Shown: positions 8,859 to 59,806 of the stretch, piece after piece
Position numbering within the stretch: the first letter of the stretch is position 1
Layout: every line of letters begins with the position of its first letter
The notes under the pieces: model-generated
Databases searched by the model: none
What the model saw: the letters and a program-made list of their open reading frames with translations, nothing else
What the model was told of the DNA's origin: nothing
NCBI RefSeq assembly: GCF_026130545.1
Contig: NZ_JAMOIM010000023.1
Coordinates: 1 to 64,000 of the forward strand
Direction: 5' to 3'
Length of the DNA: 64,000 nucleotides
Source: Lichenifustis flavocetrariae
Lineage (GTDB): Bacteria > Pseudomonadota > Alphaproteobacteria > Rhizobiales > Beijerinckiaceae
Made by a program: the position numbers and the translations under genes

Positions 8859-11800
8859 ATGCGAATCAATCGCCACTACACGAAGTCCTCGGGCGCGCCT
8901 TATGCCGGCATAGAGTTCCGTGCGACCAAATCCGAGATCAGGAATCCTGACGGATCCGTGGTATTTTCCCTCGACGGGATCGAGGTTCCGGCCGCATTCT
9001 CACAGGTTGCAGCCGACGTGCTGGCGCAGAAATATTTCCGCAAGGCGGGTGTGCCCACGCGTCTGAAGAAGGTCGAGGAAAACGACGTCCCGTCCTTCCT
9101 GTGGCGTTCGGTGCCTGACACCGAGGCTCTCGCGGTCTTGCCGGAGAGCGAGCGCGCCGGCTCAGAGACCTCGTCCAAGCAGGTGTTCGACCGGCTGGCC
9201 GGCACCTGGACCTATTGGGGATGGAAGGGCGGTTATTTCACGTCGGAGGAGGACGCCCATGCGTTCCACGATGAGCTCCGCCACATGCTGGCCCGCCAGA
9301 TGGTCGCGCCGAACTCGCCGCAATGGTTCAACACCGGTTTGCACTGGGCCTATGGCATCGATGGGCCCGGCCAAGGCCATTCCTATGTCGATTTTCGCAC
9401 CGGGAAGCTGACGAAGTCCGAGTCGGCTTATGAGCATCCGCAGCCGCATGCGTGCTTCATCCAATCCGTTGCCGATGACCTTGTGAATCCGGGCGGCATC
9501 ATGGACCTTTGGGTGCGTGAGGCGCGGCTCTTCAAATACGGTTCCGGCACCGGCACCAACTTCTCGCGCCTGCGCGGCGAGAATGAGAAGCTGTCGGGCG
9601 GCGGGCGGTCCTCGGGTCTGATGTCCTTCCTGAAGATTGGCGATCGGGCTGCCGGCGCCATCAAATCGGGCGGCACCACCCGCCGTGCGGCCAAGATGGT
9701 GGTGGTCGATGCCGATCATCCGGATATCGAGGCCTATATCGATTGGAAGGTGCGCGAAGAGCAGAAGGTCGCGGCGCTCGTCACAGGCTCCAAGATCAAC
9801 AAGAAGCACCTGAAGGCGGTGTTGCGTGCCTGCGTAAACTGCGAAGGCCCCGGAGATGACTGCACGAACCCGGAGAAGAATCCGGCGCTCAAGAAGGAAA
9901 TCAGGGCCGCACGCCTGAATGCCGTGCCGGACAACATGATCCAGCGCGTGATCCAGCTCGCGCGCATGGGCCATACGTCGATCGACCTGCCGGAATTCGA
10001 CACCGACTGGGATTCTGAGGCCTATCTCACGGTCGCGGGCCAGAACTCGAACAATTCGGTGCGGGTCACCGACGATTTTCTGCGTGCCGTCGAGACCGAC
10101 GCCGATTGGGCGTTGACGCGGCGGCTCGATGGAAAGCCTTTGAAGACCATCAAGGCCCGTGCCTTGTGGGAGAAGATCGGCTTCGCGGCCTGGGCTTCGG
10201 CCGATCCAGGCCTGCAATATCATACCACCATCAACGACTGGCATACCTGCCCGGTCTCAGGGCCGATCATCGCCTCGAATCCGTGCTCGGAATACATGTT
10301 CCTCGACGACACGGCCTGCAACCTGGCGTCGTTGAACCTGCTGCAATTCAAGGATCCCGCAACCAAGCGGATCGATACGGTGGCCTATGAGCATGCGGTC
10401 CGTCTGTGGACGGTGGTGCTCGAGATCTCCGTGCTGATGGCGCAGTTCCCCTCGGAGGAGATCGCCACGCGCTCCTACCGCTACCGGACGCTGGGGCTTG
10501 GCTACGCCAACATCGGCGGCCTCCTCATGTCTTCGGGCATCGCCTATGATTCCGACGAGGGCCGTGCCATCTGCGGCGCGCTCTCGGCCATCATGACAGG
10601 TGTGTGCTACGCGACCTCGGCCGAGATCGCGTCCGAGCTCGGGGCTTTCCCGGGTTACGCACCCAATGCCGATGCCATGCTGCGCGTGATGCGTAACCAT
10701 CGCCGTGCGGCCTATGGCGAGGCCATTGGTTACGAGCAGGTGGCTGTCATGCCCGTTCCGCTTGACGCGGCGTCCTGCCCGGACCCGATGCTGATCGAGC
10801 GCGCCCGGCTCGCTTGGGATGCCGCTGTCAGCGGCGGTAAAATGCATGGCTATCGCAATGCCCAGACGACGGTCGTGGCCCCGACGGGCACGATCGGCCT
10901 CGTGATGGATTGCGACACAACCGGCATTGAGCCGGATTTCGCGCTTGTGAAATTCAAGAAGCTCGCCGGGGGCGGCTATTTCAAGATCATCAACCGTGCG
11001 GTGCCCGAAGCACTGCGTGCGCTCGGTTATCGCGAAAACGAGATCGCCGAAATCGAGGTCTATGCGCTCGGCCACGGCAGCCTGCGTCAGGCGCCGGCCA
11101 TCAACACCTCGTCGCTGCGCGCACGAGGCTTCACCGACGAGAAGCTCGAAGGCTTGGAGAAGAGCCTTGCCAATGCCTTCGATATCAAGTTCGCCTTCAA
11201 CAAATGGGCGCTCGGCGCGGATTTCCTCGTCAACACCCTGAAGGTCCCGGCCGACAAGCTCGACGACCAGAGGTTCGAGCTCCTGCCTTTCCTCGGCTTC
11301 TCCAAGGCCGACATCGAGGCCGCCAACATCTTCTGCTGCGGAGCCATGACGCTCGAAGGCGCACCGCACCTCAAGGTGTCACATTACAAGGTGTTCGATT
11401 GCGCCAATCCCTGCGGCCGCACGGGCAAGCGCTATCTGTCCGTCGAGAGCCACATCCGCATGATGGCGGCGGCGCAGCCCTTCATCTCGGGCGCGATCTC
11501 CAAGACCATCAACATGCCGAACGATGCGACGGTCGAGGCCTGCAAGGAGGCTTATCTCCTGTCCTGGCGTTTGGGGTTGAAGGCCAATGCGCTCTACCGC
11601 GACGGTTCGAAGCTCTCTCAGCCGCTGAATTCCCAGCTGATCGAAAACGACGATGAGGTCGAGGACGCGGTCGAGACGCATCTCGCGACGCCGATGCCGG
11701 CGCGCACGGCCGAAGTCGCCGAACGGATCGTGGAGCGCATCGTCGAGCGGGTGGAGCGCCAGCGTGAGCGCGAGAAACTGCCGAACCGCCGCGCGGGTTA

Positions 11801-12590
11801 CACCCAGAAGGCGTCTGTCGGCGGTCACAAGATCTATCTGAAGACGGGCGAGTACAAGGACGGGCGGCTCGGCGAGATCTTCCTCGACATGCACAAGGAA
11901 GGCGCCGCCTTCCGGTCGCTGATGAACAATTTCGCGATCGCTATCTCACTTGGCCTGCAATATGGCGTGCCGCTTGAGGAATACGTTGAGGCCTTCACGT
12001 TCACGCGATTTGAGCCGGCCGGCCCCGTGCAGGGCAATGACGCGATCAAGAATGCGACCTCTATCCTCGACTATGTGTTCCGCGAACTTGCGGTCTCATA
12101 TCTCGACCGGACGGATCTCGCGCATGTGGCGCCGTCGGATCTCGGCTTTGACGCCATGGGGAAGGGTGAAGGCGAAGGCCGAACGGGTGGCATGGAAGTT
12201 CGGGCGAGCGACTCGGGTTTCGTCTCCAAGGGTCTTGTCCGATCCAAGGGCGACCGGCTGATGCTCGTGCGCGGCGGCGCTTCGGGTGAATCGCGTGCCG
12301 CGCAAGTGACCAAGTCGCCGGCCTTTTCGACGGAGGGCGCGACAGCCCTCAAGCAGGAGGTGAGCCGAGAGGTGGCCCGTGAGGCCGTTACGGAAGAACT
12401 CTCTGCCTTGGCCTGGAACGAGCCGCAGGGCTTCGCGGCTGCCAGGGAAGCCGTGGCTGACAAGAAGGCCGAGGCGCGAATGAAGGGCTACGTCGGCGAA
12501 TCCTGTCCAGAATGCGCGAACTTCACGCTCGTACGGAACGGCACATGTCTGAAGTGCGACACTTGCGGAGCGACGACGGGATGCAGCTGA
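8859..12590 (+). CDS. nrdJ: Adenosylcobalamin-dependent (class II) ribonucleoside-diphosphate reductase
   Basis: 1243 residues. It reduces ribonucleotides to deoxyribonucleotides using a B12 radical and works with or without oxygen. Seen: N-terminal [20 protein letters not shown]; the substrate loop [18 protein letters not shown]; the catalytic region [22 protein letters not shown] with the thiyl-radical Cys; [19 protein letters not shown]; and a C-terminal Cys-rich tail [15 protein letters not shown].. with [11 protein letters not shown], which carries the redox thiols and resembles a zinc ribbon. Length matches the long proteobacterial NrdJ type. It is monocistronic; a strong hairpin follows. 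The start ATG 8859 gives the usual MRINRHYTK beginning. Confidence 0.95.
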
Positions 12591-12610
12591 GGTAGAATTG
12601 TGTTTCGAGA

Positions 12611-12651
12611 CCGCAGAGACGATTTCAGATGAAAAGAAATCGTCTCTGCGG
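12611..12651 (+). terminator. Perfect 16-bp hairpin after nrdJ
   Basis: The arm 12611-12626 (CCGCAGAGACGATTTC) is exactly complementary to 12636-12651, with a 9-base loop. It starts 20 bases after the nrdJ stop. There is no U-tract, so it is either a non-canonical terminator or an mRNA 3'-end stabiliser. Confidence 0.7.
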
Positions 12652-13217
12652 AGGCAGGACGACTTCTAGAGCTGGTAAAAGCTTCACAGGAGCGATGCTT
12701 GGACGTCGTCTCCGTTTCTACTGGCTTCAGCAAAATGGCTGGCAACATAAGGGTAAGCTTACGCTGAAGGGAAATTACCCAGGGGCCATTTGAGCAGGGT
12801 CAGGCGCTGACGGTCTGGAGAATGATCTCGAAGGCGTTGTTGACGGGCCGGAGGCGCTTGGTGTCCACCACGGTACGGACATCGGCCTCTCCCTGAGCTG
12901 CCGACATGGCGCGATAGCCGTTGGTGACCTTGCGCTGGGTGACCGACGGTCTGAGTGCGCGTTCACAGCCATTGTTGAGGCGTAGACAATGCCCGGCCAT
13001 TTAGCAAAGGTGAGAAGCTGGTCGCGCGCTCGTCTGAACCTGTTCTGGAGGTTTCGCGCGAGATCGCAAGATGTCTGGGTCGCGAGCGTTGCGATGCGGG
13101 CTGCCACGGCAAACGCACCTTGAAGCCACAGCTTGAGCCGCATCGGCAGGAGATCCTCGCCCGCTTGATGACATCGCGCGCCAGATGCGCGAGGCAGGTC
13201 TGCTGGGCTCCCGCATG

Positions 13218-13274
13218 CCCTCCAGTCGCCACTCCACCCTGCTGCGCAGGATGGAGCCTCTCGCTCCTTCCGCC
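13218..13274 (-). repeat. Diverged copy of the palindromic element inside the IS66 transposase
   Basis: In the transposase frame it adds GRSERLHPAQQGGVATGG between SDRYSAQQG and the QQTCLAHLARD block, which are normally almost contiguous. The pattern G-x-x-x-R-L-x-x-A-x-x-x-G-V-A-x-G-G matches the intact copies, and GGAGC..GGCTCC still forms a short stem. Confidence 0.6.
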
Positions 13275-13540
13275 CTGTTGGGCGGAATAGCGGTCTGACA
13301 GCCAGACCGCCGGTCGGTGTCGATCCATCATGTCCCGGATCACCACGGCGCCGCGCGTCAGAGACGCCTGATGAACCACGGCGTCGTTGCAGCGGAAGAC
13401 CCAATGAAACGAATTGCTGCCCTCGATGCGGACCCCGGCCTCGTCCGAGGCGATCACGTCGGCTTGGCGCAGGACCGCGACAGCATCGTCGCGCTTGGCC
13501 GCGAACGTCCGCTGCGCGGCGGAGCATGTTCATCAGCCCC

Positions 13541-13597
13541 TCTCCGCCTGCTACTCCACTCAGCTTCGCCGAGCGGAGCCTCTTGCAGGCTCCGCCC
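13541..13597 (-). repeat. Palindromic element inside the IS66 transposase
   Basis: 57 bases inserted between SQG and LMNMLRR, adding about 19 codons in frame (GACKRLRSAKLSGVAGGE). The core hairpin is GCGGAGCC (13573-13580) and GGCTCCGC (13588-13595) with a 7-base loop. Near-identical sequence recurs at 14854-14909 and a relative at 58966-59020. Confidence 0.8.
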
Positions 13598-14146
13598 TGG
13601 CTGACCGTCCGGGCGAAGAGATGCTCAAGGGCGCCTTGCAGACGCTCATAGGACAGCGCCTGGAACGTCTTGAAATAGGTTTCTACCGTGTGGAGGCGTG
13701 GGCCGAACGGTGTCCCCTTCGCCGCCGAGGGCATCGGCGCCTCGACCGTCGCACCGCACGACGGACAGCGCACGGCCAGGCGTCGATGGCGCTCGACGAA
13801 GGGCTTGATCGCAGGCAGCTCAACCTTATCGTGCTCGCTGACCACCTCTGCAGCCAAATCGCTGGGCAGAGCCATGCGGCAACACGGGCATTCCTGGGGA
13901 TGAGGATTGACGATCCGATCGACATCCTCGCTCAAACGGCGCGAATGCCCCTCGTGGCCCGGCTTGGCCCAGCCAGGTTTGGCCCTCTCACCGCGCTCTT
14001 TTCGATCGGTCGAGGGGCGGCTTGGCCGACGTCTGCGACGTCTTCGTCGGGCGTTGCAGCCGCAACACCAGCTCGATCAGCTCGTCTTTGCTTAATCGCT
14101 CAAGATCGGGCCCATTCGCCAAAGGAATCAACGATTTCCTCCCGTG

Positions 14147-14290
14147 ACAAAGGGGGTGGGTAATCACGCAGGCTTGATCGGGAAGATCAACGCGCAGACG
14201 TTGCCACTGATCGTTGACTGGCTTGCGCGGCACCATATCCCATTCGATGAGATCCACGTCGGCAAACCCTGTGCGGGCACGAGGGATTTT
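14147..14290 (+). pseudogene. Fragment of a HAD/capsule-biosynthesis-type protein gene
   Basis: The plus strand reads NHAGLIGKINAQTLPLIVDW then LARHHIPFDEIHVGKPCAG. This resembles a conserved block (G-N-V-G-x-I-N-x-x-T-L-P-x-I-x-D-W-L, P-F-D-E-I-x-V-G-K-P) in HAD-like proteins found with capsule or nucleotide-sugar genes. Both ends are missing: the IS66 remnant abuts one side and the next transposase remnant the other. It probably marks the gene into which these elements inserted. Family assignment is from memory and tentative. Confidence 0.45.
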
Positions 14291-14355
14291 GCGTCGATGA
14301 TCGGGCGGTGCGGCCATCTATACCGGCCCCGGATAGTGAGACACCGATCTTGATC

Positions 14356-15015
14356 CTATGCGGCAATAGCCGCGGGTGAAAGGAGGTCGCGTCGAACGGC
14401 GGCGGGGGTTCGATGCCCGAGCCGTCCGATCATCCACATGGTGTTGTAGGTGTCCTTGAAGGCGAGTAGCGCCCGGCGCAACTGCTCGACGGTGTCGAAG
14501 CTCTGCACCCAAAGGAGGTTTTCCTTGAGGGTGCGGATGAAGCGTTCGGCGCAGCCGTTGCCTCGGGAGCCCGCACGAAGGCGGGTGAGCTTTCGGCGCC
14601 CAAGAAGGCAATCTCCTCCTGAAAGGCACGTGCCATGTACTGGCTGCCGTGGTCATGCCGGACCGACAGACCGCGGGCAACGTCCTTGGCGAAGCCACCG
14701 AAGTGCTGGCGCGCCCTGGCGGATCGGTTCCAGCGCCTCGAAACGGGTCCCGTGGTGAGCGGCGTGCATACCGACGCATTCGGCATTGTGGTGATCGACG
14801 GCAATGAAGACCGCCACCTGTCCTCACGGGTCCAGGCCGTCGTCATGTCCGTCCCTCCGCCTGCAACTCCACACAGCTTCGCTGCGCGGAGCCTCTTGCA
14901 GGCTCCGCCCACATCGTGTCGATCGTCGTGGGGATGATGGTGCCGTCGTGATTACGCGGTCCTCGCTGTGATCCAATGCGCGAGGGTGCCAAAAGGCCAT
15001 GCTCGCGCATCAGCC
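14356..15015 (-). pseudogene. rve/integrase-type transposase (IS3-like orfB), 5'-truncated and frameshifted
   Basis: Minus strand, in order: VLRLMREHGLLAPSRIGSQR, TIIPTTIDTMW, TDMTTAWTRED, FGGFAKDVARGLSVRHDHGSQYM (second catalytic Asp), FLGAESSPAFVRAPE, and in another frame CAERFIRTLKENLLWVQSF (catalytic Glu) ending LSPAAIAA at 14356. At least three frame changes are needed. A palindromic element splits TMW from TDM. The N-terminal helix-turn-helix part is absent: the sequence is joined at about 15010 to the 5' half of an IS630 transposase. Confidence 0.75.
14854..14909 (-). repeat. Palindromic element inside the rve-type transposase
   Basis: About 56 bases inserted between the codons for TMW and TDMTT. 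The hairpin GCGGAGCC (14886-14893) / GGCTCCGC (14901-14908) has the same 7-base loop TCTTGCA as the copy at 13541. One frame reads GGACKRLRAAKLCGVAGG, in frame with the downstream part of the gene. Confidence 0.8.
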
Positions 15016-15492
15016 GCAGCACGTGGTGACGTGCCTGGCCTCGAAGTCCGGATCCTTGGACAGTTTGAAGTGGCGCACGAGGTGCGGCTTCAAGCCATGG
15101 TCGCGCCAGATCTTCTGCACCGAACCCGGTGCGATGCCGACCGCCTTGGCCATCATGCGAGTACTCCAAGGCGTCGCCTCGGTCGGCCGCTCCGTCGTGG
15201 TCTTGCTCACAACCTTGCGGATAACCTCAGGAGGCAGTCGCCCGGGAGGCCGGGTCTTGTCGCGCAACAGACCGTCGAAACCGGCTTCGGCAAAGCGCGC
15301 CTGCCAGCGCCACACCGTCGGCTTCGATTGCCCGGTCTGCCGCATGATCTCCATCGTGCCCAGGCCGTCGCCGGTCAGAAGAACGATGTGTGCTCGGGCC
15401 GCATGCTTTTGTGGCGTGTTCCGGTCCGCCACCAACTCGCTCAGCCGCGCCCGATCCTCGGGCAATACTGAGACCTCAACACCGCGTCGCAT
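15010..15492 (-). pseudogene. IS630-family transposase, 5' half only
   Basis: 160 codons with the IS630 N-terminal helix-turn-helix region: LVADRNTPQKHAARAHIVLL, GTMEIMRQTGQSKPTVWRWQ, FAEAGFDGLLRDKTRPPG, then WSTRMMAKAVGIAPGSVQKI and HGLKPHLVRHFKLSKDPDFE. The catalytic DDE half that should follow is absent because the frame runs into the rve-type remnant and stops at 15010. It is a partial, inactive copy. Confidence 0.8.
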
Positions 15493-15638
15493 GACCCCAG
15501 CATGCCACCTCCGCAGCAGTGTGGGAATCCTCCAACCCGGTCAGAACACTAGGCACGGTTCCGCCTTTAAAACACGCACACCCACCCGCGCCATGCCGGC
15601 CCGTCGCTTCATTGAAATGTAGGGATTTCAACATGCAA

Positions 15639-15667
15639 GGGGCCACCCTTCCACGAAGGATGACCCC
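15639..15667 (-). terminator. Possible terminator of the 15.7-18.7 kb ABC operon
   Basis: GGGGCCACCCTT (15639-15650) pairs with AAGGATGACCCC (15656-15667) with two mismatches and a 5-base loop. It lies about 45 bases beyond the last gene of the minus-strand operon. No clear U-tract. Confidence 0.4.
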
Positions 15668-15710
15668 TCAATAGTTCTTCAACAAGTCATGGATTGTTAC
15701 TGTAGAAACA

Positions 15711-16538
15711 CTACTTGATGAGTCGCGGCGCGCCGGTGGTCGCTGCAGACTCGCTGAGACCGTATTTGGCCAGCAACTTGCCGATCGTACCGTCCTTGTG
15801 CAGCTGCTCGATATCCTCGTCGAACGCCTTGCCCATCGCGGTATTGTCCTTTGTCATCGGAAAGGTGCCTTGGCCGGCCTCCTGGCTCGCCGCTACCCGC
15901 GGATCTGGCTTGATCCCGACGATCTTGATCCCCGGCAACTGGCCCTGCTGCTGCGCCACCACACCGATCGACTCACCGTCGACGCCAAGGTCCACGCGAC
16001 CTGCCATCAGGTCCTGCTGCATCGCGACGGATGTCTGGTAGAGCTTCACCTTGTCGCCGAACACCTTCTTCATGTCGGCATTCCAAAGGTTACCGGATGT
16101 GCTGCCGATGACCTTGCCTTCCATCTGGCCGATCGAGTCGTAGCCTTGCTTCGAATAGACAGCCATCTGGTCGACGTAGAGCGGTGCCGTCAGATAGACG
16201 ACGCGGGCGCGCTCGGCGGTGCGGTACCAGTCGCCAGTCGTGGTGTCGGCTTTCTTGCTCAGCACATACTGGATGCCGGAGCCACCGTCCGCGACGACCG
16301 GTTTGACCTTGAGGCACTCGAGCTTGGCGATCTCGGCCATGATATCGCCGTCGATCCCCACGAGCACGCCGTCCGCGTTGATGAGCGAATAGGGTGCGTA
16401 GGTCGAAGCACCGACCGTGATGAAGCCAGCCTCGACTGTCGTGAATGTGTGTTTGGGGGTGCAACTCTGGGCCTGGGCTGTCGCGGAAAGCGCCGCCAGG
16501 AACAGGGCCGCGGTCATGGTGCTGCGGACGGACATCAT
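15711..16538 (-). CDS. Polar amino-acid-type ABC transporter, periplasmic substrate-binding protein
   Basis: 275 residues of the SBP_bac_3 family. Signal peptide MTAALFLAALSATAQAQ, then the first lobe FITVGASTYAPYSLINADGVLVGIDGDIMAEIAKLE, hinge DTTTGDWYRTAERARVVYLTAP, GKVIGSTSGNLWNADMKK, and the C-terminal DEDIEQLHKDGTIGKLLAKYG. It captures a small amine or amino acid in the periplasm and delivers it to the two permeases encoded downstream of the ATPase. It is the last gene of a four-gene operon (ATPase, permease, permease, binding protein). Given the demethylase genes next door, an N-methylated amino acid is a reasonable guess for the ligand. Confidence 0.88.
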   Translation of the reverse strand: MMSVRSTMTAALFLAALSATAQAQSCTPKHTFTTVEAGFITVGASTYAPYSLINADGVLVGIDGDIMAEIAKLECLKVKPVVADGGSGIQYVLSKKADTTTGDWYRTAERARVVYLTAPLYVDQMAVYSKQGYDSIGQMEGKVIGSTSGNLWNADMKKVFGDKVKLYQTSVAMQQDLMAGRVDLGVDGESIGVVAQQQGQLPGIKIVGIKPDPRVAASQEAGQGTFPMTKDNTAMGKAFDEDIEQLHKDGTIGKLLAKYGLSESAATTGAPRLIK

Positions 16539-16560
16539 CTTTTTCCTTTAAGGTGAGGGT

Positions 16561-17238
16561 TCAACGGACCGCATAGGCCCCGGCGCGATGCTCGACGTAG
16601 GAAACGAGAAACGAGGCGGGCATGCAGATAGCGACATAGAACAGCCCCGCGGTCGCCAGCGCGGGAAAGTAGAAAAACGTGTTGGTGCCGATCTCGTAGG
16701 CTCGGCTGATGAGCTCGGGCAGCGCGATGGTGAAGCAGAGCGACGAGGCCTGGAACACCAGGATCGAAAAGCCGAGCAGCGCCGGGACGGCGACGCGGAG
16801 ACCCTGGGGCAGGATCACGTAACGGAGGCCGTCCATGCGCGAGAGGCCGAGGGCGCTCACGGCCTCCTTATGGCCGCCCGGCACCGAGTCGAGACCGGCG
16901 CGAATGATCTCGCTTGTGTAGGCACCCGTGGACCAGCCGAGCGCGATGGTCGCGGACACGAACGAGGTGAGCGGCAGGCCCGCGGACGGAAGCCCGAAAT
17001 AGATGAACTGGAGCAACACGAGGGCCGGCGCGCCGCGTCCGATCTCGACGACGGCGAGGCAGATCCCGCGCAAAAGCATCGCTTTCGTTTGGACACCGAG
17101 CGCCAGCGCGAGCCCGAGCGGCAGGCCGACGGCCAGCGACGCGATCGTCACCTCGATGCTGAGGACGAACCCCGACCAGAGATCGGGCAGCCAGGACGTG
17201 AAATCGTCCCAGGTGGCGCCCTGCAACAACGCGTTCAT
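16561..17238 (-). CDS. Polar amino-acid ABC transporter permease
   Basis: 225 residues, HisM/GlnP type, inner membrane. Hydrophobic helices VLSIEVTIASLAVGLPLGLALAL, FVSATIALGWSTGAY and ALATAGLFYVAICMPASFLV; the EAA loop is HKEAVSALGLSRMDGLRYVILPQ. The start ATG 17238 overlaps the stop of the previous permease as ATGA, indicating translational coupling. It forms a heterodimer with the product of 17235-17876. Confidence 0.88.
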   Translation of the reverse strand: MNALLQGATWDDFTSWLPDLWSGFVLSIEVTIASLAVGLPLGLALALGVQTKAMLLRGICLAVVEIGRGAPALVLLQFIYFGLPSAGLPLTSFVSATIALGWSTGAYTSEIIRAGLDSVPGGHKEAVSALGLSRMDGLRYVILPQGLRVAVPALLGFSILVFQASSLCFTIALPELISRAYEIGTNTFFYFPALATAGLFYVAICMPASFLVSYVEHRAGAYAVR

Positions 17239-17876
17239 CGGGCCACCTTGGCGCGAAGGTAGAGATCGGCGCGCCGGGACAGCCAGGCGATCGGTAGGCT
17301 GAGGAGGATGTAGATCAGCCCGACCATGCCGAAGACCTTGAGGCCCTGGAACGTCTCCTGGGTGAGGCGTGCCCCCTGGTAGGCAAGTTCGGGCACGCCG
17401 ATCGTCGAGGCGATAGCAGTGTCCTTCATCAACCCGATCGCGTAGGTGGCCGACGATGGCAGTGCGACCCGGAACATTTGCGGCGCGATGACATCGCGGA
17501 ACGTGTGGGCGCCCCCCAGATTGAGCGCCTGGGCAGCCTCCCATTGGCCGTGGTGGATCGAGATCAGGCCTCCGCGGTAGATCTCCGCCATGTTGGTGGC
17601 AGCGATGAGACCGAGCCCGATCAGGGCCGCGGTCAGCGGGCTCATGCTGAAGGCGCCGGTGCCGACACCGAAGAAAATTATAAAGAGCCACACCAGCGGC
17701 GGCACCGCCCGAATCAGGCTGATGAACGCGATCGACACGAGGCGGACCGGAAGGCTGCGGGCATTGCGCCCCAGCATGATGGGATAGCCGAGAATGCAGC
17801 CGATCAGCAGCGACACCGCCGTGATCAGGATCGTCCAGGGCAATCCGCGCAGGATGAGGCCGAGCTGATACAACAT
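17235..17876 (-). CDS. Polar amino-acid ABC transporter permease
   Basis: 213 residues, second inner-membrane subunit. Helices LRGLPWTILITAVSLLIGCILGYPI, RAVPPLVWLFIIFFGVGTG and GLIYILLSLPIAW; EAA loop QWEAAQALNLGGAHTFRDVIAPQ. ATGA overlaps occur on both sides (with the ATPase stop at 17876 and the next permease start at 17238), so the three genes are translated as a coupled set. Confidence 0.88.
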   Translation of the reverse strand: MLYQLGLILRGLPWTILITAVSLLIGCILGYPIMLGRNARSLPVRLVSIAFISLIRAVPPLVWLFIIFFGVGTGAFSMSPLTAALIGLGLIAATNMAEIYRGGLISIHHGQWEAAQALNLGGAHTFRDVIAPQMFRVALPSSATYAIGLMKDTAIASTIGVPELAYQGARLTQETFQGLKVFGMVGLIYILLSLPIAWLSRRADLYLRAKVAR

Positions 17877-18688
17877 CAGCGTTCGTTCACGGCGCGCAGG
17901 AACTGTCTGGCCCGCGCCGATTGGGGATTTCGGATGACCTCGCGGCTCGGGCCGTATTCGAGAATGCAACCGTCGGCCATGATGGCGACGTGATCCGAAA
18001 CATTCTCGGCGAAGCTCATCTCGTGGGTCACCACGATCATGGTCATGCCGCTCGTCGCGAGTTCGCGCATGACGGACAGGACTTCGAGGCCAAGTTCGGG
18101 ATCGAGCGCAGAAGTCGGTTCGTCGAACAGCATCACCTTGGGATCGAGCGCTAGCGCGCGGGCGATGGCGATGCGCTGTTGCTGTCCGCCCGAACAGCGG
18201 CTCGGGTACTGCGCGGCCTTGTCGGCGAGACCCACCCGCGTCAGCAACTGCATGGCGATCAGCTCGGCTTCGGCTGATGTTCGGCCGAGGACACGCTCCT
18301 GCGCGAGCGTGATATTGCGCAGCACCGTCAGGTGGGGGAACAGGTTGAACGATTGAAACACCATGCCGAGCTTGCTGCGCAATGCGCGGAGATCCCGCCG
18401 CGACACCGGCGTTTCCCCTTCGATCGTCACGTCTCCGACCGTTACAATGCCCTTGTTGGGCGGCTCGATGTAATTGATGCAACGGAGCAATGTGCTCTTG
18501 CCCGAGCCGCTCGGACCGATGATCGCCAAGACGCCGCCGGAGTGAACCGAAAGGTTTACGTCACGCAGCACCGTATGAGCGCCGTAACTCTTGGTGATCT
18601 GTTCGAGCTTGACGTAGGGCTTGTTCGTCAGAGCCAAGGGCGCTTCTTTTCCGACGTGCTGTCCGACGACCCTGAGCTGTTGAGGCAT
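17876..18688 (-). CDS. Polar amino-acid ABC transporter ATPase
   Basis: 270 residues, GlnQ/HisP type. Walker [11 protein letters not shown]-loop [17 protein letters not shown], signature CSGGQQQR (the usual LSGGQQQR with Cys in place of Leu), Walker [13 protein letters not shown] and switch His VTHEMSF. It powers uptake by the two permeases. The first ATG is 18688, but the first ~20 residues are not family-like; a later start near [11 protein letters not shown] is possible. First gene of the operon. Confidence 0.9.
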
Positions 18689-58399: not shown

Positions 58400-58641
58400 G
58401 GCTGGGCAGCCAGCTTCTTTTTTTCAAAGCGGTTTGCCTCTGGATAGCGCCACCAGCTGCGGCCATCCTGCTCGGAAATGGTCCTTGAAGTTCTGGAGGA
58501 TTGGCTTGTGCATGAGAGCCGCAACGAACGGTTCGGTCTCGCAGGCATGCCAGCTGTGGTGTTAGGCGAGGATTACGGGGGTTAAGTTGGGATTGACCCG
58601 GTTTGGTGAACACCCTGAAGCTTTCATCAGAGGTGTTCTCA

Positions 58642-58965
58642 ATGTCGAAGACCCGCCCGCCGTATTCGCCTGAGTTCCGCCGTCAGATGGTCGATCTGGT
58701 TCGCGCCGGTCGCGATCCGGACGATCTTGCCCGAGAGTTCGAGCCGACCGCCCAGTCAATCCGGAACTGGACCGCGGATGCCGACAAGAAAGGGAGCCGT
58801 CGGGAGGAGGTGCTGCCTGGCCCGAATGCGGCTGAGCGGGACGAACTGACCCGGCTGCGGCGTGAGAACAAGCAGCTTCGCGTCGAGCGGGACATCCTGT
58901 CAAAAGCCGCGGCCTGGTTTGCACGGGAGACCGGGGCGCTCCCGTCCGGCTCTTCCGGTTCATGA
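58642..58965 (+). CDS. IS3-family transposase OrfA
   Basis: 107 residues. Helix-turn-helix transposase_8 domain: PPYSPEFRRQMVDLVRAG, DDLAREFEPTAQSIRNW, then leucine-zipper-like RDELTRLRRENKQLRVERDILSKAAAWFA. Intact. Its stop overlaps the orfB ATG (ATGA at 58962), where frameshifting would normally join the two. The first codon is set by AGAGGTG upstream. Confidence 0.82.
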   Translation: MSKTRPPYSPEFRRQMVDLVRAGRDPDDLAREFEPTAQSIRNWTADADKKGSRREEVLPGPNAAERDELTRLRRENKQLRVERDILSKAAAWFARETGALPSGSSGS

Positions 58966-59530
58966 GCGGAGCCAGCTTGAGGCTCCGGCCAGCGAAGCTG
59001 GTTGGAGAAGCTGGCGGAGAGGCGAACCAGGCCTGCTTTCCGGTTTCCACCATGGCGCGCGTCCTCGGCGTGTCCAAGGCGGGCTACTACGCTTGGCGGC
59101 ACAGGTCGCCATCACGCCACGCGGTTGCCGACGCGGCGTTGCTGAAGCGGGTCCGGACCGTGCACACCAGTTCGCGGCAGACCTACGGCGCTCCTCGTAT
59201 TCACGCTGATCTCCAAGGCCTTGGCGAGCGCCATGGCCGCAAACGAATTGCGCGCCTGATGCGAGAGGCTGGGTTGGTCGGTGCCAGTCACAGGCGTGGT
59301 GGCCCGACCACGACGCTGCGGGACAAGGATGGACGGCCTGCGCCGGACCTGGTCGATCGTAACTTCAAGGCATCCGGTCCGAACCAGCTCTGGGTCGCGG
59401 ACATCACCTATGTGCCGACCGCGGCCGGCTTCCTTTATCTGGCCGTCGTTCTGGATGCGTGGAGCCGCAAGATCGTCGGCTGGTCGATGGCCAACCACCT
59501 GCGGGCCGAACTGGTGCTGGACGCGATGAC
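58962..59530 (+). pseudogene. IS3-family transposase OrfB, truncated
   Basis: Contains VSTMARVLGVSKAGYYAWRHR, TYGAPRIHADLQG, RIARLMREAGLVG, and the first catalytic Asp region NQLWVADITYVPTAAGFLYLAVVLDAWSRKIVGW, but after HLRAELVLDAM (59527) homology stops. The second Asp and the Glu are missing. A palindromic element is inserted after codon 1. The reading frame then passes out of frame through an alanine-exporter remnant to 59705. Confidence 0.78.
58966..59020 (+). repeat. Palindromic element inside IS3 orfB
   Basis: About 55 bases placed just after the orfA/orfB ATGA junction, adding SGASLRLRPAKLVGEAGGE in frame with the rest of orfB (ANQACFPVSTMARVL). GCGGAGCC (58966-58973) pairs with GGCTCCGG (58981-58988) with one mismatch. 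Confidence 0.72.
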
Positions 59531-59806
59531 GGCATCTGGCGCGACTGGCTTTTGCGACGCGCCGGGCCGGACCGGCTTTCGCAGGTGTTTTGGGATGGCC
59601 TCGCCCTGGTCAGCTTCCAGGTGCCTATCTATGCGGCGATCATCGCGGTCAGCGGTGCGTCCGGACGGGGACTGCTCATGGGCGTCTTGGGAGCCACGCT
59701 CATGATGCTGGCGCTGGGCCGTCCCTATGGTGCATTTCTGAACGTGGTCAGGACATCGTTCGGGCTCTCGCCCGGCGGAGACCGGCCGATGAGCCTCCAG
59801 GATTGA
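59531..59806 (+). pseudogene. C-terminal fragment of an AlaE-type alanine exporter
   Basis: In the frame ending at 59806: GIWRDWLLRRAGPDRLSQVFWD, ALVSFQVPIYAAIIAVSGASGRG, MMLALGRPYGAFLNVVRTSFG. These are the last two membrane helices of AlaE (about 150 residues in full). The first half is replaced by IS3 orfB, joined at about 59530, with no start codon of its own. So a deletion or IS-mediated rearrangement has destroyed both genes. Confidence 0.7.

Follow-up and report, generated by a model that had tools for sequence, protein, structure and literature searches.

Very short hopping palindromes are widespread, and how they move is for the most part unsettled. In the REP systems, the transposase TnpA-REP (RAYT) acts on one strand, with a tetranucleotide and the irregularities of a hairpin as recognition features (PMC8266576), and the tips of enterobacterial REPs include AAGCGaaGCGC and AAGCGcAGCGC (PMC2817692); CGTC-tagged REPs are short palindromic repeats apparently without a dedicated transposase (PMC3733652). 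IS608, of the IS200/IS605 type, inserts precisely 3′ of TTAC, and this tetranucleotide stays in the left flank (PMC5934647). Rickettsia palindromic elements (RPEs) are 105–146 bp long, with 12-bp terminal inverted repeats, whereas RUPs have 9-bp terminal inverted repeats, duplicate their target, insert at TA and carry stops in all six frames (both PMC2229807; here and below, these accounts follow extracts of the papers cited). The closest structural parallel to the element described below is the single-strand hairpin with a short 5′ target, as in REPs or IS200/IS605, and not the RPE.

The window (the whole stretch of DNA analysed, 64 000 nucleotides) contains four copies of this element, all matched by a refined covariance model (R2). 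The earlier note had reported three copies of a 55–57 base element, at 13541–13597, 14854–14909 and 58966–59020; related elements are indeed present at all three places, and to these must be added a fourth, at 13218–13271 on the minus strand, within the same IS66 gene as the first. The inserted unit itself is 54 nt long and starts after GGGC or GAGC. The features are as follows.

13540–13593, minus strand: element copy 1, 54 nt, in an IS66 transposase gene, 3′ of GGGC (R2 match 13538–13599, 74.5 bits).
13218–13271, minus strand: element copy 2, 54 nt, in the same IS66 gene as copy 1 (R2 match 13216–13277, 66.8 bits).
14853–14906, minus strand: element copy 3, 54 nt, in an rve-type (IS3-family) transposase gene (R2 match 14851–14912, 81.2 bits).
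58968–59021, plus strand: element copy 4, 54 nt, in an IS3-family orfB, 3′ of GAGC (R2 match 58962–59023, 75.3 bits).
58971–59015, plus strand: hairpin of copy 4, made of stem A, a 4-nt bulge, stems B and C and a GAA triloop (from the DNA fold and covariation over 34 copies).
12775–13935, minus strand: stretch of the IS66 transposase gene with copies 1 and 2 (open reading frame; alignment to homologue L074).
58603–59705, plus strand: IS3 orfA and orfB, host of copy 4 (open reading frames; HTH_21 and rve in protein L025).

The IS66 assignment comes from a zf-IS66 match in the flank upstream of copy 1 and from the annotation of L074 as IS66 family; an open frame spans 12775–13935, yet the IS66 frame shifts past copy 1, where there is a 2-nt gap relative to L074. 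The homologue of the rve gene (L076) is annotated as IS3 family, and copy 4 lies two codons past the start of orfB (open reading frame 58962–59705). Around copy 3, the stretch 14318–15492 (minus strand) also has, by reading, a separate helix-turn-helix frame with the look of IS630 preceding the rve transposase, and seems to be a patchwork of IS pieces.

The element is by no means confined to the window. In the host genome, an assembly of 7.5 Mb (completeness 99.7%, contamination 3%), there are 46 matches to the first covariance model at E up to 0.1 and at least 47 to the refined model at E up to 0.05 (among the best 150 of 8720 candidates scored), so the possibility that the genome holds no further copies can be set aside. 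For the B12-dependent ribonucleotide reductase encoded in the window, tblastn against plasmid records gave Methylobacterium bullatum (73%) and other alphaproteobacteria as best matches, and the host is accordingly a probable alphaproteobacterium. An exact pattern of the arms was found at seven places in this genome and at none in the reversed control; a 55-nt pattern with at most two mismatches was found at 16 host-genome places, with no hit in its reversed control or in any of the phylum sample's 397 other genomes, among which no congener is listed. Occurrences of the element therefore exceed chance. At E 1e-4 there were matches in six of 40 genomes, with 43 in the host, one in a genome of another genus, and 1, 0, 1, 2 and 3 in five congeners. 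A scan of the class with model R1 (E 1e-6, 14 candidates scored per genome) gave matches in at least two of 385 genomes including the host, and the pattern scan of the phylum in at least one of 398, the host. A contig of a Limisphaerales MAG has two good copies, in two transposase genes, possibly through contamination of the MAG; with one pattern, a scan of genome contigs yielded at least two stretches beyond the host, of which one is weak, and viral contigs gave no match to two degenerate patterns. No Rfam family scored above its gathering score in 10000–18000 of the window or over the elements in eight searched loci, and no description of a 54-nt element family was found in titles and abstracts of the open literature.

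The analyses below draw on 41 distinct sites, a set that leaves out same-site duplicates (L017, L022, L024, L026, L031, L033, L037, L039, L051 and L071), weak or irregular matches (the minus-strand copy of L053, L054, L057, L059, L065, L067, L069, L073 and L081) and four matches to R2 (C92:602150, C93:6566, C152:229 and C174:6302). A set of 38 copies and an alignment of 34, both with copies that are partly non-independent, were used for the hairpin, and strand folding covered 19 copies.

Evidence for insertion comes from element-free homologues, which were taken from named plasmids. In 20 of 31 comparisons of full with empty alleles the net insertion equals the element's own length. These 20 represent 11 distinct sites, of which three lie in a single IS3 gene and two in IS66, while rve, IS91, IS1380, IS256, IS21 and IS701 genes contribute one apiece. 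Of the remaining 11 comparisons, five missed by 1 or 2 nt, one (L023, poorly aligned) missed by 6, and five were unaligned across the site. Within the window, copy 1 is a net insertion of 54 nt relative to L074 and L075, copy 2 of 54 nt relative to L074 and L080, and copy 4 of 54 nt relative to L077 and L079, while for copy 3, measured against L076, the net insertion is 53 nt in the window itself and 54 nt in L019, a relative. The length is close to fixed, being 54 nt at 36 of the 41 sites, 55 at two, and 52, 53 and 56 at one each; on direct reading, the 52-nt copy has lost one base from each arm of the outer stem, which leaves the pairing intact and the frame lost. Judged by these sequence comparisons, the 54-nt element is real, mobile and inserted into genes, much as the earlier note had supposed on seeing a palindromic element in transposases. 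The contrary idea, that the peptide belonged to these transposases ancestrally and that there is no mobile element, would have to accommodate element-free homologues at 11 sites in several transposase families, as well as related sequence in phase 0, in phase 2 and antisense, and we regard its probability as negligible.

No target duplication is present at the sites compared, since the right flank shows no base preference over the 41 sites. The left flank, on the other hand, is nearly fixed: the base at −1 is C at all 41 sites, and the last four bases are GGGC at 35 of them, GAGC at three, and AGGC, CGGC and GGTC at one each. At 8 of the 11 compared sites GGC or AGC (RGC) is already present in an element-free homologue, and the GC is therefore part of the target and not of the element. 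At the other three (the second IS66 site, IS91 and the antisense IS1380 site) the homologue has no RGC at the junction (this is so for copy 2 in L074 and L080), and there the GC may have been changed or may have arrived with the element.

From 5′ to 3′, the element consists (after the GGGC) of GGAG, a 7-nt arm, a GRGG bulge, a 5-nt arm, a 6-nt arm and a GNA loop, followed by the complementary 6-nt, 5-nt and 7-nt arms and CGGAGGG, with any base beyond. Its conserved fold is thus one imperfect nested hairpin of 18 bp with a 4-nt purine bulge. In 34 ungapped copies 90.4% of cells are paired, and there are 129 double-change cells against 42.3 in shuffled alignments (0/500), a strong rather than an exact figure because related copies inflate such counts; the same hairpin slid out of register gives only 19–26, and RNAalifold recovers most of it unguided. 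The 8-base hairpin GCGGAGCC/GGCTCCGC that had originally been reported does not hold up as the functional fold, with 4 double-change cells against 2.7 shuffled (130/500, 34 copies). It is perfect in two of the three copies first reported (the IS3 copy ends GGCTCCGG), and is a feature of one subfamily and not the conserved fold, although it can form as an alternative, in the centroid structure of copy 1 and in one of the 19 copies folded. A pseudoknot that had been drawn from 11 copies was also discarded, as its pairs became the outer stem of the nested hairpin once subfamilies were added.

Several details of the hairpin are highly constrained. The first four positions read GGAG or GAAG in 33 of 38 copies and GTAG in none. 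The ends of the element (GGAG … GGAGGG) are direct, with no terminal inverted repeats. The two base pairs below the loop are invariant in all but one of the 38 copies, the loop itself is mostly GNA (G in 29/38, A in 35/38) with a tip of the form GC-GNA-GC, and position 20:36 is a G-T wobble in 28/38; positions 6–7/45–46 are GA/GA in 7/36. GNA loops closed by G-C pairs make exceptionally stable DNA mini-hairpins (PMC4686876, in extract). In 33/36 copies bulge purine 12 matches the purine of the neighbouring pair 16:40, and in 32/36 bulge purine 13 matches that of pair 17:39; this would suit base triples, though few independent events may underlie the match. In the copy at 13540–13593 and its relatives, bulge positions 12–15 covary with 16–19 and 37–40 in the manner of a purine mirror repeat, a possible short triplex.

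The hairpin is biased to one strand. G-T wobbles outnumber A-C mismatches by 50 to 11 in 36 copies (24 to 11 if the conserved 20:36 wobble is left out), and with DNA energies the top strand was the more stable in all 19 copies tried. In the window, top-strand energy was lower in 4/4 copies, whereas the shuffle z-score was stronger for the top strand in only 2/4: for copies 1, 3, 4 and 2 in that order, the values were −2.15, −4.56, −5.18 and −1.46 for the top strand and −2.32, −3.05, −4.84 and −1.62 for the bottom strand (the minus-strand copies being folded with a 3-base offset). The DNA fold of copy 4 (58971–59015) has an energy of −17.8 kcal/mol (z −5.18).

The element thus inserts without duplication, nearly always 3′ of GGGC, and has a conserved hairpin on one strand. 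How might it move? Insertion beside a left tetranucleotide with no duplication, ends that are direct, and an irregular hairpin specific to one strand together make it best described as REP-like, and we give about an even chance to the reading that it is a non-autonomous element moved as single-stranded DNA in the manner of REPs or IS200/IS605. By analogy with those systems, a trans-acting HUH-type (Y1) nuclease would cut and rejoin the hairpin strand in its folded, single-stranded form, with the left tetranucleotide as cleavage and target site. With REPs it shares the strand-specific irregular hairpin, the conserved tetranucleotide directly 5′ of the stem and, as far as the extract of PMC2817692 goes, the GNA-type tip of some enterobacterial REPs. 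It is not, however, a member of the GTAG REP family, on grounds of tag, size, location and RAYT alike: the tag is GGAG or GAAG instead of GTAG, the element is 54 nt long, with a conserved 3′ tail, and mostly intragenic, whereas GTAG REPs are 20–40 bp and extragenic; the left flank is GGGC where REPs have a CT cleavage site; and REPs have a cognate RAYT, whereas none was found in the host genome. CGTC-tagged REPs resemble it in being short, palindromic and apparently without a dedicated transposase, but their tag is CGTC where the element has GGAG, and the extract of PMC3733652 reports no link to transposase genes of the kind seen here. With IS200/IS605 elements (for IS608, as the source extract has it) it has in common insertion precisely 3′ of a short sequence kept at the left, and imperfect palindromes on one strand, and its fixed left sequence (GGGC at 35/41 sites) without target duplication is of the IS200/IS605 type; it differs in having one hairpin in place of separate left and right ends, and in its target, GGGC.

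No RAYT was found in the host genome (99.7% complete), perhaps through loss or because a diverged gene was missed by the model, and no tnpA with a matching left flank was found there either. The single Y1_Tnp match in this genome is an IS605-type TnpA beside a TnpB (about 1375–3040 of L082, contig C101). As a mover this element seems unlikely, as its ends score at best 5.7 bits against model R1 and TTAC, not GGGC, precedes its likely left end. A larger autonomous relative with the same ends was not seen in an unsystematic look. The mover may have been lost, may have diverged beyond the model, or may be of another kind. IS607-type insertion by a serine recombinase, which would duplicate a core dinucleotide, was set aside because the junctions have no such duplication. 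It would be conceivable, too, that the element is a MITE moved by a DDE transposase, like the pneumococcal RUP, which (in the extract of PMC2229807) likewise accumulates in the transposase genes of several IS families and is likewise short and palindromic; but the ends of our element are direct and not terminal inverted repeats as in RUP, target duplication is absent at the sites compared, and there is the G-T-rich strand bias, so that we consider a MITE very unlikely.

What the insertions do to the genes that receive them bears on whether the element is there to be translated. Its length, equivalent to 18 codons, would make insertion frame-neutral, and the frame is in fact kept across the element in the IS66 and IS3 copies of the window, as the earlier note had observed; the rve copy in the window is out of frame by one base, and its relative L019 is in frame. 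Thirty gene insertions have a readable frame (insertion phase was determined mostly by reading, and the rve site is represented by L019 instead of the out-of-frame window copy), 22 of them sense and eight antisense; hence the statement that the element always has the same orientation relative to the gene is true of each of the copies then reported from the window, and not of the genome. Their hosts are transposase genes, except for one primase-like gene. The frame is open in 18 of the 30 and closed in 12 (six by a frameshift, in one case together with a stop, and six by a stop), while in the absence of selection the observed lengths and stop frequencies predict about 22 open and eight closed; there is therefore no sign that openness is selected, and the frame is often kept because 54 nt makes 18 codons with few stops, not visibly through selection for translation. 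Copies whose loop is GTA or ATA repeatedly contain an in-frame TAG. The peptide that was first described, GACKRLRxAKLxGVAGGE, is one reading of the element, while insertion in phase 2 gives AEPARGSARQSRVELQAEG and antisense insertions give others.

These figures also limit how far the comparison with RPEs can be taken. As in RPEs (by the extract of PMC2229807), a palindrome is inserted frame-neutrally in genes, and to this extent the likeness stands; but RPEs are fused in frame into genes for conserved proteins, whereas our element lies in transposase genes, is 54 nt long and has neither terminal inverted repeats nor any sign of coding selection. If it were a protein-coding palindrome of the RPE kind, translated into a tolerated in-frame peptide with openness kept by selection, one could point to the length of 54 nt at 36/41 sites, to the 18/30 open insertions, and to an IS3 with the element at the start of orfB on three contigs between which blastn similarity is confined to the IS region. 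This last case suggests that the element is tolerated there, and the element-bearing gene may have spread. Set against this are the 12/30 closed frames (no fewer than expected without selection), the recurrent in-frame TAG, the eight antisense insertions and the several phases with their unrelated peptides; we find such a role quite unlikely. The explanation that we prefer, single-strand movement, would make the peptide a by-product of frame-neutral insertion, which we include in the same evenly balanced judgement.

The hairpin fold would suit RNA as well as DNA. In a further reading, a hairpin RNA would be attached to other RNA, or reverse-transcribed and inserted, or else bypassed or spliced out, which would leave the host gene working. 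The strand-specific fold and the lack of target duplication would agree with this, and there are IS frames that, over the stretch examined, are open to either side and broken only at the element, in L041 (IS21) and L028 (IS91) by a frameshift and in L023 by TAG. Eight antisense insertions among 30 nevertheless argue against insertion by way of the host mRNA, some copies with TAG are in genes that were already decayed (L036, L037), and no Rfam family corresponds, and on balance an RNA-level element seems unlikely. Translational bypass of the T4 gene 60 or byp-like type, which the recurrent GGA codons might suggest, was unsupported by the open and antisense copies.

The association with mobile genes to which the earlier note drew attention is borne out by the host genome, where the copies lie mostly within transposase genes from many IS families. 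Such genes account for 24 of the 33 distinct sites in that genome, in both orientations: 18 assigned by a Pfam match on a flank (L042 below the cut-off, and L029 and L048 showing only helix-turn-helix families, of IS630 or IS3 type), and six by alignment to an annotated homologue, by a shared IS copy or by reading. One further site is in a primase-like gene (DUF7146, Toprim_3), and at eight no family was found for the single stretch tested. Each of the eight sites from other genomes reads as a transposase gene: four have a Pfam match (below the cut-off in one of them, L070), L066 and L068 gave none for the stretch tested, and L062 and L064 were assigned by reading. A figure of 24/33 would be very unlikely even if transposase genes made up an assumed 20% of the genome (binomial 1e-10). 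Purging from useful genes explains part of this excess, but would be harder to reconcile with the surplus over intergenic sites, since an insertion there should do no damage. Transposase genes predominate, then, either because they tolerate insertion and carry the element between genomes, or because they are favoured targets.

Some individual loci deserve mention here. On host contig C99 (L026/L033) one IS3 copy has four elements (C99:57781, 57883, 58149 and 58315), the fourth at the junction of an internal IS deletion of several hundred bases. In L067 (1501–1563, from congener G005) an element separates what appears by eye to be a nucleoside hydrolase-like frame from the 3′ portion of an rve transposase, as though rearrangement breakpoints were marked by elements. 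One IS1380 gene (C133:19382–19582; L051/L031) has two elements in opposite orientation about 80 bases apart. There are also group II intron matches near element-bearing IS copies, at L008 2376–2510 and L013 1143–1244.

Nine sites carry an element at one and the same position in each of two diverged host-gene copies, and here the elements are more alike than their surroundings: they differ at 22 of 487 positions, compared with 117 of 1017 for 60-nt flanks (one-sided p 3e-6) and 69 of 600 for 35-nt flanks (p 2e-5), figures to be read in the knowledge that the pairs were chosen by hand, that some share an IS copy, and that some flank alignments are disturbed by neighbouring insertions. The effect is weak at some sites, such as IS630 in G005 (element 10/54, flank 28/109), and in two IS1380 pairs the flanks are little diverged. 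A neutral, inherited insert should not be better matched than coding flanks, and this therefore points to reinsertion at the site or to homogenisation by conversion. It is possible, though we think it rather unlikely, that the element represents an undescribed class of minimal single-hairpin mobile DNA, with a mover other than RAYT, targets of GGGC plus further sequence, homing-like returns to the same sites in IS copies that had diverged separately, a niche in IS transposases and possible base triples at the bulge. If this were true, base triples between bulge and stem would offer a novel means of marking the active strand.

The evidence for this element is unusually clean: its length is nearly fixed, its left flank is defined by four bases, alleles without it are available, and it shows strong compensatory change as well as strand bias. 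It also separates frame-neutrality from selection for translation, two things that are easily confused in ‘protein-coding palindromes’. If single-strand mobilisation without a RAYT were shown, the element would represent a new route for REP-like spread, and would provide a test case for why such sequences pile up in other mobile genes.
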